Assembly: GCA_000010565.1 (NCBI GenBank)
Contig: AP009389.1
Coordinates: 62,001-126,000, forward strand
Direction: 5' to 3'
Origin: Pelotomaculum thermopropionicum SI
GTDB lineage: Bacteria > Bacillota > Desulfotomaculia > Desulfotomaculales > Pelotomaculaceae
DNA length: 64,000 nucleotides
Below the pieces are notes generated by a model. It saw nothing but the letters and a program-made list of their open reading frames with translations. It did no database searches and was not told the origin of the DNA. How positions within the stretch are numbered: position 1 is the stretch's first letter; the number at the start of each line of letters is the position of its first letter. The translations under genes were made by a program, and so were the position numbers. This document shows, one piece after another, positions 20,415-24,708 of this stretch.

Positions 20415-21362
20415 ATGAGATTGTTTAGAGGACATAAGTTTTGCTGTGTTGCAACCTTACTGGTAATTGCCGTTCTTGCCTTTTTGGGGGCGGCTTGGCC
20501 TGCCGGGGCGGAAGCGGCTGCCGTTACCCTGACGGCGGACGAGAAGCAGATGGTGGACCTGGTCAACCAGGCCAGGGCGCAGGCCGGTCTGGCCCCGCTG
20601 GCCGCCGACCCGGTCCTTACCGGCCTGGCCCGGATAAAGGCCCAGGACATGGCCTCCGGCGGCTATTTCGGCCATTATTCGCCCACCTACGGCTCACCCT
20701 TCGACATGATGAAGAAGGCCGGAGTGCGGTACCGCTACGCCGGGGAAAACCTGGCCAGGGCGTCATCGGTCAGCTCGGCCTTTAAGGCTTTGATGAATTC
20801 CAGCGGCCACCGGTCCAATATGCTCAGCCGGAATTACGACCGGATAGGCGTAGGAATTGTCAGTAAGGGTTCATATATGATAGTCGTCCAGATGTTTACC
20901 GGCGGCCAAAAAGTCACCGCACCATCACCGCAGCTGCAGCCCCAGCCCCAGCCCCAGCCCCAGCCCCAGCCCGCCGGCAGCCTCAATGCCGATGAGCAAA
21001 AAATGTTTGATCTGGTCAACCAGGAGCGGGCAAAGGCGGGCCTGAGCCCGCTGCAAATAGACATGAACCTGGTTAAACTGGCCAGAATGAAGGCGCAGGA
21101 CATGATTGACAGGGGGTACTTCGGCCATAATTCACCCACTTACGGGTCGCCTTTTGACATGATGAAGGCATACGGCGTGCGCTACAGCTATGCCGGGGAG
21201 AACCTGGCCGGCGCTCCCACCGTAGAAAGCGCCCATAGCAGCTTGATGAACTCTTCAGGCCATCGCGCCAACATCCTCAACGCCAATTATACTAAAGCCG
21301 GAATTGGTGTTGTCAGCGGGGGACCTTACGGTAAGATGTTTGTTCAGATGTTTACAGGTTAA
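20415..21362 (+). CDS. Secreted protein with two CAP/SCP domains
   Basis: Exported protein of 315 residues with a signal peptide (hydrophobic core about 12-34, likely cleavage near AEAAA). Two CAP domains cover about 38-165 and 190-315. Each copy carries the same landmarks: LVNQARAQAGLAPL or LVNQERAKAGLSPL, SGGYFGHYSPTYGSPF or DRGYFGHNSPTYGSPF, YAGENLA, and MNSSGHRSNML or MNSSGHRANIL. They are joined by a Pro-Gln linker of about ten residues. The domains are clear duplicates. The c-di-AMP riboswitch ties it to wall and osmotic homeostasis. Bacterial CAP proteins of this YkwD class are found in walls and spores, but the activity is unproven. Confidence 0.93.
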   Translation: MRLFRGHKFCCVATLLVIAVLAFLGAAWPAGAEAAAVTLTADEKQMVDLVNQARAQAGLAPLAADPVLTGLARIKAQDMASGGYFGHYSPTYGSPFDMMKKAGVRYRYAGENLARASSVSSAFKALMNSSGHRSNMLSRNYDRIGVGIVSKGSYMIVVQMFTGGQKVTAPSPQLQPQPQPQPQPQPAGSLNADEQKMFDLVNQERAKAGLSPLQIDMNLVKLARMKAQDMIDRGYFGHNSPTYGSPFDMMKAYGVRYSYAGENLAGAPTVESAHSSLMNSSGHRANILNANYTKAGIGVVSGGPYGKMFVQMFTG

Positions 21363-21444
21363 TTAAATTATTTTATTAAATAGGCAGGTAAAAAGGCCGG
21401 CCCGGGCAGATACAAAAAAAGTTATTGCTAGTAAGATAAGGAAT

Positions 21445-21470
21445 AGGACTGAGGTCCTTTTTTTTTGTTT
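21445..21470 (+). terminator. Terminator after the CAP-domain gene
   Basis: AGGAC, TGAG loop, GTCCT, then a run of nine T. Confidence 0.85.
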
Positions 21471-21496
21471 TTTGCTGGCTGGCTGCACTTTTTGGT

Positions 21497-21523
21497 ACAT
21501 TTTCATATCACACTCATATATTA
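21497..21523 (+). promoter_or_regulatory. Sigma-K-type promoter of the SipL-like gene
   Basis: AC at 21497-21498, 16 bases, then CATATATTA at 21515-21523, an exact match to the CATANNNTA -10 box of the late mother-cell sigma factor. It sits 31 bases before the start codon. Sigma-E control is possible, as the boxes are alike. Confidence 0.6.
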
Positions 21524-21553
21524 GTATAGAAAAGCTTGAAAGGAGGATTAAAT

Positions 21554-23095
21554 ATGGCTGGAACCGAACGGCTTAAGGTCAATCTGGTCCAGGGTGAAAA
21601 TAGAGTCCAGACCGTTGTCAGGGGACAGATTGAAGTTCCTCAAGCCAAGCCGGAAATTGAAAAAATCCTGTCCAAAGACGCCAAAGCCAGGACAAGAAAC
21701 GTAAGCATTGTTCCCGATAAGGTTATCGTAGACGGTACGCTGTCTCTGCAAGTGACCTATGTCGCCTTTAAGCCGGATCAATCTGTTCACTCTATGGAGG
21801 GCGACGTTAACTTCACCGCCTTTGTAGATGTGGAAGGCGCAATGCCGGGGATGGATGCCGTGGTAGAGCTTACCGTGGAGGATGTGAGCCTGACTCCGAG
21901 CAAAAGAGACCCCTTAAAATTCGACGTTGCGGCTGTGCTCAGCACTTTTGTCAAGGTGACGGAGCTGGATGAGCTTGAAATACTTACATCGGTCCCGGAG
22001 GGGAACGAGGCTCTGGAAACCCAGGACATCGCCGTGGAGCACATGATCGGCGACAAGGCCGCCAAGCAGGTAATTGTCAGCGATCAGTTCGAGGTGCCGG
22101 AAGAAAAGCCCGATGTCGAAAAAGTCCTGGCTTCAAAAGCCGAAGTGGAAATAACCGGTACCAAAGTCCTTGCGGGCAAGGTCATCGTGGACGGGGAAGT
22201 AAGGCTTCAGATTCTGTACTCGGCGATGGACCCCAGGCAGACGGTCCACGACCTGCACCACACCATCAAGTTCAGCGACTTCGTGGAGGTTCCCGAAGCC
22301 CAGCCCGGCATGAACGTGCAGGTGCGGGCCGAAGTGGAGGATGCTGACGTTCAGCCCGTGATTGACCCTAAGCTCACGGCGGACGCCGTCATTAAGCTTA
22401 CCGTTTTTGTTTCTGAGACCAGAACGCTCAAGGACGTCCCCACCAAGCTCAAAAACGAGGAAGGCTTTGAAAAGAGAAGGCTCAAGGTGGACCGGGAGAT
22501 AGGCACGGGGGTCACCCAGGTGGTATTGCGGGAAACCGCTGCGGTTCCCGAAGAAAAGCCGGATATCGCCAAGGTTATCGAAACCATGGTGGATAAGACG
22601 GAAGTTACCGAGACCAACATTCTGAAAGGAAAGGTCCTGATCAGGGGCTATACGGACGTGGAAGTAGTGTACGTCAGCACCAAGCCTGCCCAGGATGTCC
22701 ACGCCCTCCACCAGCGCCTGAACTTCCGCACTTTTGTACCGGTTGCCGGGGCCGAGCCGGATATGGACGTCAAGGTAAGCGTGGAACCGGAATTTGTCAG
22801 CGTGGATCAGCTTGGAGCAGACGTGCATACCGAGGCGGTGCTCAGGGTCAAGGCTACCGTTACCGAAATTACCCAGCCCAACGTATACGTGCCGACAGGC
22901 GCGGCCCCCACCGCGGCGCCTACTCCCTGCCCGCCCACCGACTATGTGGTCAAGGCGGGTGACACCTTGAGTAAGATTGCGGCAGCCCACGGAGTAAGCG
23001 TGCAGGCAATTCTCGACATTAACCCGCAGATTACCAATCCCGATGTTATCGACGTAGGCCAGGTAATTAAAATCCCCTGCCCGGCCAAAGGCTGA
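21554..23095 (+). CDS. SipL-like spore-coat morphogenesis protein: three SPOCS domains and LysM
   Basis: A 513-residue protein with three tandem SPOCS (DUF3794) repeats, each with a motif such as KVIVDGTLSLQVTYV, KVIVDGEVRLQILYS and KVLIRGYTDVEVVYV, each followed by a VH-hydrophobic-F element. A Pro/Ala linker leads to a C-terminal LysM (DYVVKAGDTLSKIAAAHGVS to the end). This matches SipL of Clostridioides, which uses its LysM to bind SpoIVA and set the coat base layer. ATG 21554 follows AAAGGAGG. The gene has its own sigma-K-like promoter. The next gene also holds a SPOCS domain. Sporulation function is strongly inferred. Confidence 0.88.
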   Translation: MAGTERLKVNLVQGENRVQTVVRGQIEVPQAKPEIEKILSKDAKARTRNVSIVPDKVIVDGTLSLQVTYVAFKPDQSVHSMEGDVNFTAFVDVEGAMPGMDAVVELTVEDVSLTPSKRDPLKFDVAAVLSTFVKVTELDELEILTSVPEGNEALETQDIAVEHMIGDKAAKQVIVSDQFEVPEEKPDVEKVLASKAEVEITGTKVLAGKVIVDGEVRLQILYSAMDPRQTVHDLHHTIKFSDFVEVPEAQPGMNVQVRAEVEDADVQPVIDPKLTADAVIKLTVFVSETRTLKDVPTKLKNEEGFEKRRLKVDREIGTGVTQVVLRETAAVPEEKPDIAKVIETMVDKTEVTETNILKGKVLIRGYTDVEVVYVSTKPAQDVHALHQRLNFRTFVPVAGAEPDMDVKVSVEPEFVSVDQLGADVHTEAVLRVKATVTEITQPNVYVPTGAAPTAAPTPCPPTDYVVKAGDTLSKIAAAHGVSVQAILDINPQITNPDVIDVGQVIKIPCPAKG

Positions 23096-23226
23096 CGAAT
23101 GCGGGTTTAACCTTCGGTTGCCCCGGCTTGCCGGAAATCTGGCAATAATTTCGGAGGGTCTGGTAAAGGTAAAAACTTTTATAAGGTTTTTTATATAAAA
23201 AATAAAGTTTTAAGGAGGTTTAATAA

Positions 23227-24282
23227 ATGCCTGTAGAGTTTTTCTTTACGGAAACGCAGCCGGTCAGATGCATTGAAATAAAGGTACCGGTGGTGGTTGC
23301 CGAATCAGACGTGGAAGTGGTGGTTGACAGCGTTATCACCCTGCCTGAACTGGCGATGAAGGTTGACAAGATCATTGCCTCGGTGCGCGACCTTAGAGGA
23401 ACCCCGGTATTTGTGGAAGAAGAGGAGCAGCCGACGGGCCCCATTACCGTTGTAGAGCTGGGGGAAATGGAGCCCAGGCGCGTGGTCGTGAAGAAGGTGG
23501 TTGTAAGCGGCACGCTGCACAAGCAGATCTTTTACGTCAACAAAAATAACGAGGTAAAGCATACCAGCGAGGATCTCACCTTCAGCAAGCTGGTCGAGCT
23601 GAAAGAGCCGAAAAGGGTGCACAAGAGAAGGGAAGTCTTTATTGAATTCAAGAATATAGACATCGACGTCAACTTTGAGCTCCAGCGGGCCAGCCGCCTG
23701 CACCAGACCGCAGTTCTGTCGGTAATCGCCAAGGCCGTGGAGGACCGCCAGATTTTCGTTCAGACCTGCCCGAGGCCGAGAGAATGCCCGGCCGGCAACC
23801 TGGTCAGGGACGGCGGCATAGAGGCCTGGGCCGACGCCACCCATCCGGTGTTCTGGGGCGCCAGCAACGTGGCGCAGACCACGATGACCCATTCCGGCTC
23901 GTTTGCCGCCGAAATCGGAAGGCTCAACCCGGCCCTGCCCGGCTCCCTGTTCCAGATGGTGACCAGGGGAATTGTGGGCGGCCGTCAGTACCGCCTGACC
24001 TTCTGGACTATGGAAGACGTATTTGGCGCCAACGTCAGCGCCTTTACCCTGAACGCCGAAGTAGTGTTCTACGATCACAACGGCGTCCAGGTCGGGATCG
24101 GCACGCAGTCCCTGGCCAGCACGGCCATACCGGATACGGCCTACAGCCAGGTCCAGTTCACCACGCCTGTTACCGATGCCAATGTGGCCTCCGCCCTGGT
24201 CCGTTTCTCCTTTACTCCTGCCGCCGGTAACACCAATACGGTCAAGATCGACAGCGTCATGCTGGAATGCGTGCCCTTATAA
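23227..24282 (+). CDS. SPOCS-domain protein with C-terminal carbohydrate-binding-like module
   Basis: A 351-residue protein. Residues 1-180 form a SPOCS-like (DUF3794) unit with KKVVVSGTLHKQIFYV and HTSEDLTFSKLVELKE. A short Pro/Cys hinge (TCPRPRECPAG) follows. The rest (about 190-351) looks like a beta-sandwich of the CBM type: NLVRDGGIEAW, FWGASNVAQTT, GSFAAEIG, YRLTFWTMED and the closing IDSVMLECV. Such modules bind sugars in other proteins. No signal peptide is seen, as expected of a coat protein made in the mother cell. AAGGAGG precedes ATG 23227. It follows the SipL-like gene by 131 bases and ends at a strong terminator. A coat or exosporium role is inference. Confidence 0.75.
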   Translation: MPVEFFFTETQPVRCIEIKVPVVVAESDVEVVVDSVITLPELAMKVDKIIASVRDLRGTPVFVEEEEQPTGPITVVELGEMEPRRVVVKKVVVSGTLHKQIFYVNKNNEVKHTSEDLTFSKLVELKEPKRVHKRREVFIEFKNIDIDVNFELQRASRLHQTAVLSVIAKAVEDRQIFVQTCPRPRECPAGNLVRDGGIEAWADATHPVFWGASNVAQTTMTHSGSFAAEIGRLNPALPGSLFQMVTRGIVGGRQYRLTFWTMEDVFGANVSAFTLNAEVVFYDHNGVQVGIGTQSLASTAIPDTAYSQVQFTTPVTDANVASALVRFSFTPAAGNTNTVKIDSVMLECVPL

Positions 24283-24296
24283 AATCTGCCGGCAAT

Positions 24297-24328
24297 AAAA
24301 AAAGCTGTTTTCTAACAGCTTTTTTTTT
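24297..24328 (+). terminator. Terminator after the SPOCS pair
   Basis: AAAAGCTGTT, four-base loop, AACAGCTTTTTTTTT. Confidence 0.9.
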
Positions 24329-24405
24329 GGCAGGGCCAAACTTTTCGGCCTGATGGTGAATATATTGATTATGAATTTCAAAAAGCGCAGAAAGGGGGAA
24401 AACCG

Positions 24406-24708
24406 TTGATAAACAACATGGGTGCCATTCTCACCGAGGTGCAGAGGCTGCAGCAGGAGCTGAAAAATAAGACCATCGAGGTGAGCGAAGGGGAGGGAGC
24501 ATTCCGGGTGATAATAAACGGCCACCAGGAGGTGCTAGACGCCAGATTCAGCCCTTCTGTTTTAAGTCCGGAAAAAGCGGATGAACTGCGGGCAATTGTG
24601 GTAAGGGCCGTAAACAGGGCTATTAACGAGTCCAAACAGATGATCAAAAGCGAACTCGGCAAGTTAACGGGCGGCCTGAATTTGCCCGATATTTCCGGGC
24701 TATTTTAG
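24406..24708 (+). CDS. YbaB/EbfC-family nucleoid-associated protein
   Basis: A 100-residue protein of the YbaB/EbfC family, dimeric DNA-binding proteins that coat the nucleoid. It shows the usual N-terminal helix (MGAILTEVQRLQQELKNKTIEVSEG), the beta segment FRVIINGHQEVLDARFSPSVL and the C-terminal helix ADELRAIVVRAVNRAINESKQ. The normal site of this gene is dnaX-ybaB-recR; here it lies beside spore-coat-like genes, so it may be a second copy. TTG 24406 follows AAAGGGGG with good spacing; ATG 24418 is the alternative. It runs into the next gene with a ten-base gap. Confidence 0.85.
   Translation: MINNMGAILTEVQRLQQELKNKTIEVSEGEGAFRVIINGHQEVLDARFSPSVLSPEKADELRAIVVRAVNRAINESKQMIKSELGKLTGGLNLPDISGLF

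Follow-up and report, generated by a model that had tools for sequence, protein, structure and literature searches.

The two adjacent genes described here, A and B, could form one mother-cell unit in which the product of B docks through its SPOCS domain and displays a module of CBM16 fold in the outer coat or exosporium, a reading to which we assign a probability of about one half. Both genes lie in a stretch of 64,000 nucleotides of Pelotomaculum thermopropionicum SI, in the following referred to simply as the window, and a genome-wide search of the 3,025,375 bases returned A and B as the only SPOCS genes. SPOCS is the abbreviation given in PMC10867305 for SpoVID-CotE-SipL. The pair amounts to a SipL-type unit with a partner that combines SPOCS and a predicted CBM16 fold. 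The coordinates of the features are collected in Table 1.

Table 1. Features of the A-B region, in window positions
Feature	Position	Strand	Description and basis
Terminator-like hairpin and T run, 5' of the A-B unit	21445..21467	+	Read in the sequence; site count in the region not above shuffles
Putative sigma-K-type promoter, AC-N16-CATATATTA	21497..21523	+	57 bases 5' of the start codon of A; conservation
Gene A	21554..23095	+	513 aa; three SPOCS domains and LysM, SipL-like (Pfam)
SPOCS matches of gene A	21653-21895, 22112-22354, 22562-22807		Pfam PF12673
C-terminal LysM of A	22943..23077	+	Residues 464-508; PF01476, E 2.3e-16
Gene B	23227..24282	+	351 aa; single SPOCS and tail of predicted CBM16 fold
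SPOCS domain of B	23269..23763	+	Residues 15-179; six long beta strands (Pfam and model)
Tail of B	23782..24276	+	Residues 186-350, the modelled beta-sandwich covering about 189-350; predicted CBM16-like, remote NTTRR-F1 relative
Hairpin AGCTGTT-TTCT-AACAGCT and T run, 3' of B	24297..24329	+	Read in the sequence; absent from the terminator scan listing

Gene A has the architecture expected of a SipL protein. PF12673 (SipL, SPOCS domain) matches it three times (E 1.3e-64, Pfam), and with the C-terminal match to PF01476 this bears out the original prediction of a first gene with three SPOCS units and a LysM as in SipL. In the case of Clostridioides difficile SipL, the Fig. 1 legend of PMC6436350 gives the same layout, i.e. 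three DUF3794/SPOCS domains followed by a C-terminal LysM. The lengths are also alike, as the SipL residues named in that paper reach at least position 516. Altogether, the domain architecture read from the sequence supports the assignment of A as SipL-like. The LysM of SipL is described as mediating its binding to SpoIVA (PMC6436350), and this partner is encoded in the same genome (PF09547, E 1.8e-119). A difference was detected at W475 of SipL, a residue on which, according to PMC6436350, strong binding to SpoIVA depends in C. difficile. When the position is numbered from Y466 and G471 (section 9 of the same paper), A has Ser473 instead. Counting near-duplicates, 54 of the 91 A sequences have an aromatic residue (Y, F or W) at the equivalent position. 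For the species of the window, the serine makes the LysM-SpoIVA step less well supported.

The genes around the pair are, in order, ksgA, g15510, yabG, g17996, g19100, g19607, a double-CAP gene of YkwD type, A, B, a YbaB-like gene, g24718, ispE and a GntR-type regulator. The assignment of yabG comes from PF05582 (E 1.1e-121), and the names ksgA, ispE and GntR from reading the sequence rather than from a family search. The two-CAP protein (YkwD-type spore protein, 20415-21362) directly 5' of A stays beside A in many relatives.

Upstream of A stands the motif AC-N16-CATATATTA, which we take to be of sigma-K type on the basis of the consensus. The strict form of this motif was present in 31 of 63 distinct A upstream regions, whereas dinucleotide shuffles predict 0.07. 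For a relaxed form the count was 61 of the 63, where 4.0 were expected and the highest of 100 shuffles gave 10. Control upstream regions (ispE, gntR, yabG and SCP) showed promoter counts near expectation. It is through this conservation that the claim of a good sigma-K-type promoter before the first gene is supported, and the motif fits the sigma-K type of the mother cell. A promoter of its own was considered for B and rejected, with the strict form in 0 of 86 upstream regions and the relaxed form in 11 (4.5 expected, shuffle maximum 9); this slight excess of the relaxed motif may come partly from separate second copies of B. A scan for sigma-70 promoters from 21300 to 24420 gave one site, under the shuffle mean of 1.5.

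The pairing of the two genes was counted wherever 2.5 kb or more of DNA was available 5' of B, in the named loci and the window. In 49 of these 59 cases, gene A is the immediate 5' neighbour of B and shares its strand. The gaps between the two range from 23 to 131 bases, 36 of the 49 being below 50, and the window itself has the gap of 131. For the ten unpaired B genes, the fetched DNA was without any A gene. In two additional loci, both of one family (L062 and L063), B lies nearby on the opposite strand.

The second gene had been predicted to join one SPOCS unit to a carbohydrate-binding-like beta-sandwich, and both a structure model and a sequence profile agree with this description. PF12673 matches B once (Pfam), with E 1.4e-5 and a score of 25.6 bits where the cut-off is 23.6. 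The AlphaFold2 model of B, built with 57 sequences, has two domains (pLDDT 90.4, pTM 0.56), and because of this pTM their mutual orientation is uncertain. A search of solved structures with the SPOCS part of the model (pLDDT 89) gave nothing clear, the best match being alpha-crystallin at Z 5.2 over 76 residues, and the best Foldseek match reached only E 0.048. Thus the fold of this domain is not named here; it possibly belongs to a family outside those listed. A profile of the B SPOCS domain gave no match to gene A of the window alone, although PF12673 matches both. Hydrophobicity resembling a signal peptide or membrane span was found in neither A nor B with a crude Kyte-Doolittle window. Within B (23227-24279), the G+C content is 62.7% in the tail part and 53.5% in the SPOCS part.

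By analogy, B would be a single-SPOCS partner of A that carries a folded CBM16-like module in place of the acidic tail of CotE. The likeness to CotE of Bacillus consists of the single SPOCS domain, the C-terminal extension and the proposed docking on a SPOCS-LysM scaffold. For B. subtilis, PMC10867305 describes binding of CotE by the SpoVID SPOCS domain. According to PMC11980541, CotE consists of one folded N-terminal domain followed by a disordered tail, and it assembles into trimers and a meshwork; this disordered, acidic end differs from the folded, CBM16-like end of B. B as a CotE homologue in the Pfam sense was ruled out: a search of the whole genome with PF10628 (CotE) gave no match up to E 1, and B was therefore not filed as CotE. 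A further, weak likeness of the B SPOCS domain is to CsxC (NF045794), which matches residues 19-145 at E 5.4e-5 and 23.3 bits, below the cut-off of 135, and does so weakly in 23 of 34 members. In PMC4942563, CsxC is an exosporium protein of Clostridium sporogenes with 273 aa and 14 cysteines, whereas B has four. Of the cysteines in B, Cys15 is invariant and Cys181 is kept in 53 of 57 sequences.

In the case of the tail, structure prediction gave the carbohydrate-binding-like fold that had been anticipated. The best match among solved structures was CBM16 (2zey, Z 17.3, rmsd 2.4, 138 aligned), and CBM61 (2xon, Z 15.3, rmsd 2.3, 136 aligned) and CBM4 (CBM4-2, 2y64, Z 15.0, rmsd 2.3, 144 aligned) came next among the named CBM families. 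As modelled, the tail of B thus has a CBM16 fold. At the sequence level, the approximately 165 C-terminal residues of B in the window obtained no Pfam name and nothing above noise, and a sequence search of the PDB gave only noise for B alone and only E 0.04 for a narrow tail profile. Because single-sequence and narrow-profile searches were too weak, a broad profile was needed for naming the tail. With this profile (A4, from 32 tail relatives of the broad family), CBM16 2zex was recovered at the sequence level with E 9.8e-9. Additionally, the uncharacterised NCBI domain family NTTRR-F1 (NF033675, NCBIfam) matches 21 of 27 tails with E values of at most 0.1, the best being 2e-12. The tail of the window scores E 5.1e-5 and 23.5 bits against it, below the cut-off of 70, and was consequently classed as a remote NTTRR-F1 relative only. 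In B, this domain stands C-terminal to SPOCS.

To describe a candidate sugar site, the tail was aligned with CBM16 at the residue level. Two tryptophans of CBM16, W20 and W125, stack on the sugar. In the 2008 work of Bae, the ligand residues are reported to be W20, Q21, Q81, Q93, Q121 and W125. In the HMM alignment, W20 corresponds to W210 of B, which is invariant (57 of 57), and W125 to S328, a position with serine in 22 and threonine in 17 of the 57 sequences. Q81 corresponds to E278, where 46 of the 57 sequences have Glu and 6 have Gln; Q21 corresponds to G211 and Q121 to L324, and Q93 falls in a gapped stretch. The CBM16 ligand set as a whole is not retained in B. N214 is invariant as well, R326 is present in 50 of 57, and W210, N214, E278 and R326 are all located on or near the ligand face of CBM16. 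W210 may be a core or structural residue, since it is invariant across the whole broad tail family. Compared to the CBM16 of the Caldanaerobius polysaccharolyticus mannanase (2zew-2zez, 3oea, 3oeb), which has the same fold and a remote sequence likeness, B has replaced the second stacking tryptophan and Gln121 and is without a catalytic partner. Judged from these alignments, a glycan site is possible in the tail of B, but with the second tryptophan replaced only one half of the stacking platform remains.

The same replacement would also suit a different role. B could be a coat protein whose tail has retained the CBM16 fold but no longer binds sugar, and instead serves in protein-protein contacts or cross-linking by which B is packed into the coat lattice. 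Most members have Ser or Thr at the second stacking position, the fold is common to non-sugar proteins such as the HpiC1 cyclases (Z about 14), and the conserved Cys15 and Cys181 would suit cross-linking. Opposed to this is the conservation of W210, N214, E278 (or Gln) and R326 on or near the ligand face, and we consider the loss of sugar binding possible but on balance doubtful.

The distribution of the fusion was obtained from one scan of 84,980 species genomes, from which 80 loci were fetched. SPOCS and tail are joined in one protein in 60 of these, 19 have SPOCS without the tail, and one (L130) is cut at a contig end. The fusion records belong mostly to Pelotomaculum, Desulfotomaculum, Desulfofundulus, Desulfovirgula, Desulfoscipio, Desulfotruncus, Desulforamulus and kin, and the full-length identity to B of the window falls to 32%. 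The original prediction had presented the fusion as one not met before. The fusion is real, but it is a conserved two-gene unit of a lineage and not a local novelty; in the open-licence literature, a description of the SPOCS-tail fusion was not found, nor anything on NTTRR-F1. Among 112 near relatives, 103 have SpoIVA and 85 have the tail at E 1e-12 or better, which indicates that the A-B system is frequent in the order without being universal and that B is dispensable for sporulation in general. Several SpoIVA-bearing families of the order are without B, as would be expected if an ordinary SipL stood beside an unrelated neighbour and the fusion were a chance joining in one lineage. Given the 60 fusion loci, their divergence and the strict A-B pairing, such a coincidence appears extremely unlikely. 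Since the pair is kept in related soil and sediment bacteria, it is probably a genuine component of the spore shell.

Several side observations were made in these loci. Separate second B copies (L119-L122, L124, L128) are longer than the operon copies, and in two aligned examples of such copies (L057, L058) a proline- and cysteine-rich insert precedes the last strand of the tail. The A-B unit also occurs in MAGs titled Deltaproteobacteria, Armatimonadetes and Actinobacteria (L090, L097 and L131, respectively), which are probably misnamed or misbinned. Outside the order, four loci (L138, L139, L140, L142) contain pairs of neighbouring proteins in tandem, and each of these proteins matches the SPOCS profile three to five times.

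Tail relatives were also detected with other partners. In a sample of 398 genomes of the phylum, they occur in 41 (E 1e-4 or better), and in the 18 loci opened outside the order SPOCS was found in none of the tail-relative ORFs. The partners include BsuPI (L166) and collagen-like repeats, the latter above the Pfam cut-off in L173 and L169, just under it in L172 and recognised by eye in L174; L169 lies inside the order. Tandem copies of the tail also occur in the opened loci. The genome of P. thermopropionicum itself has a second tail copy (1922640-1923113, minus strand) in a 365-aa LysM-BsuPI-tail protein (L006, L075) that is conserved in the order, its LysM and BsuPI labels coming from reading and from likeness to L166, where BsuPI matched. 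AC-N15-18-CATA is present in 7 of the 10 inspected upstream regions of LysM-BsuPI-tail genes, that of this genome included, a count made without a chance control.

The tail relatives that end collagen-like repeats (L169, L172, L173, L174) have a layout resembling surface filaments, and plant or host glycan binders make up many of the best solved matches of the tail. Both observations would be consistent with B being an adhesin of the mature spore, its outward tail binding environmental polysaccharide, e.g. of biofilm or sediment, and not spore glycan. The SPOCS partner of the tail argues instead for placement within the coat, which makes an adhesin a rather unlikely role for B.

Returning to the preferred reading of a mother-cell unit with a displayed CBM16-fold module, the arrangement can be proposed as follows. 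A and B would be expressed as a single mother-cell transcription unit. A would act as a SipL-type scaffold, with its LysM end close to the basement layer of SpoIVA and the three SPOCS domains directed outward. The SPOCS domain of B would dock on A and/or on other copies of B, as suggested by the SpoVID-CotE pair. The C-terminal module would thereby be displayed in the outer coat or exosporium and would most likely hold a polysaccharide or glycoprotein there.

The spore coat is organised by SPOCS proteins. To our knowledge, little is known of coat building beyond SpoIVA and SipL in spore formers other than Bacillus and C. difficile. The conserved unit of SipL and B offers a concrete outer-coat candidate for Desulfotomaculum-type bacteria, and it links a domain family of uncharacterised role with the spore envelope, so that the function of this family becomes testable. 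On a wider scale, the NTTRR-F1-related domain of CBM16 fold might be a general glycan-binding module of the Bacillota spore envelope, carried on at least three anchors (SPOCS, LysM with BsuPI, and collagen-like filaments), an idea that we put forward tentatively and consider somewhat unlikely. If true, B would be a glycan-holding counterpart of CotE, providing a sugar-bearing outer layer atop SipL in lineages without CotE.
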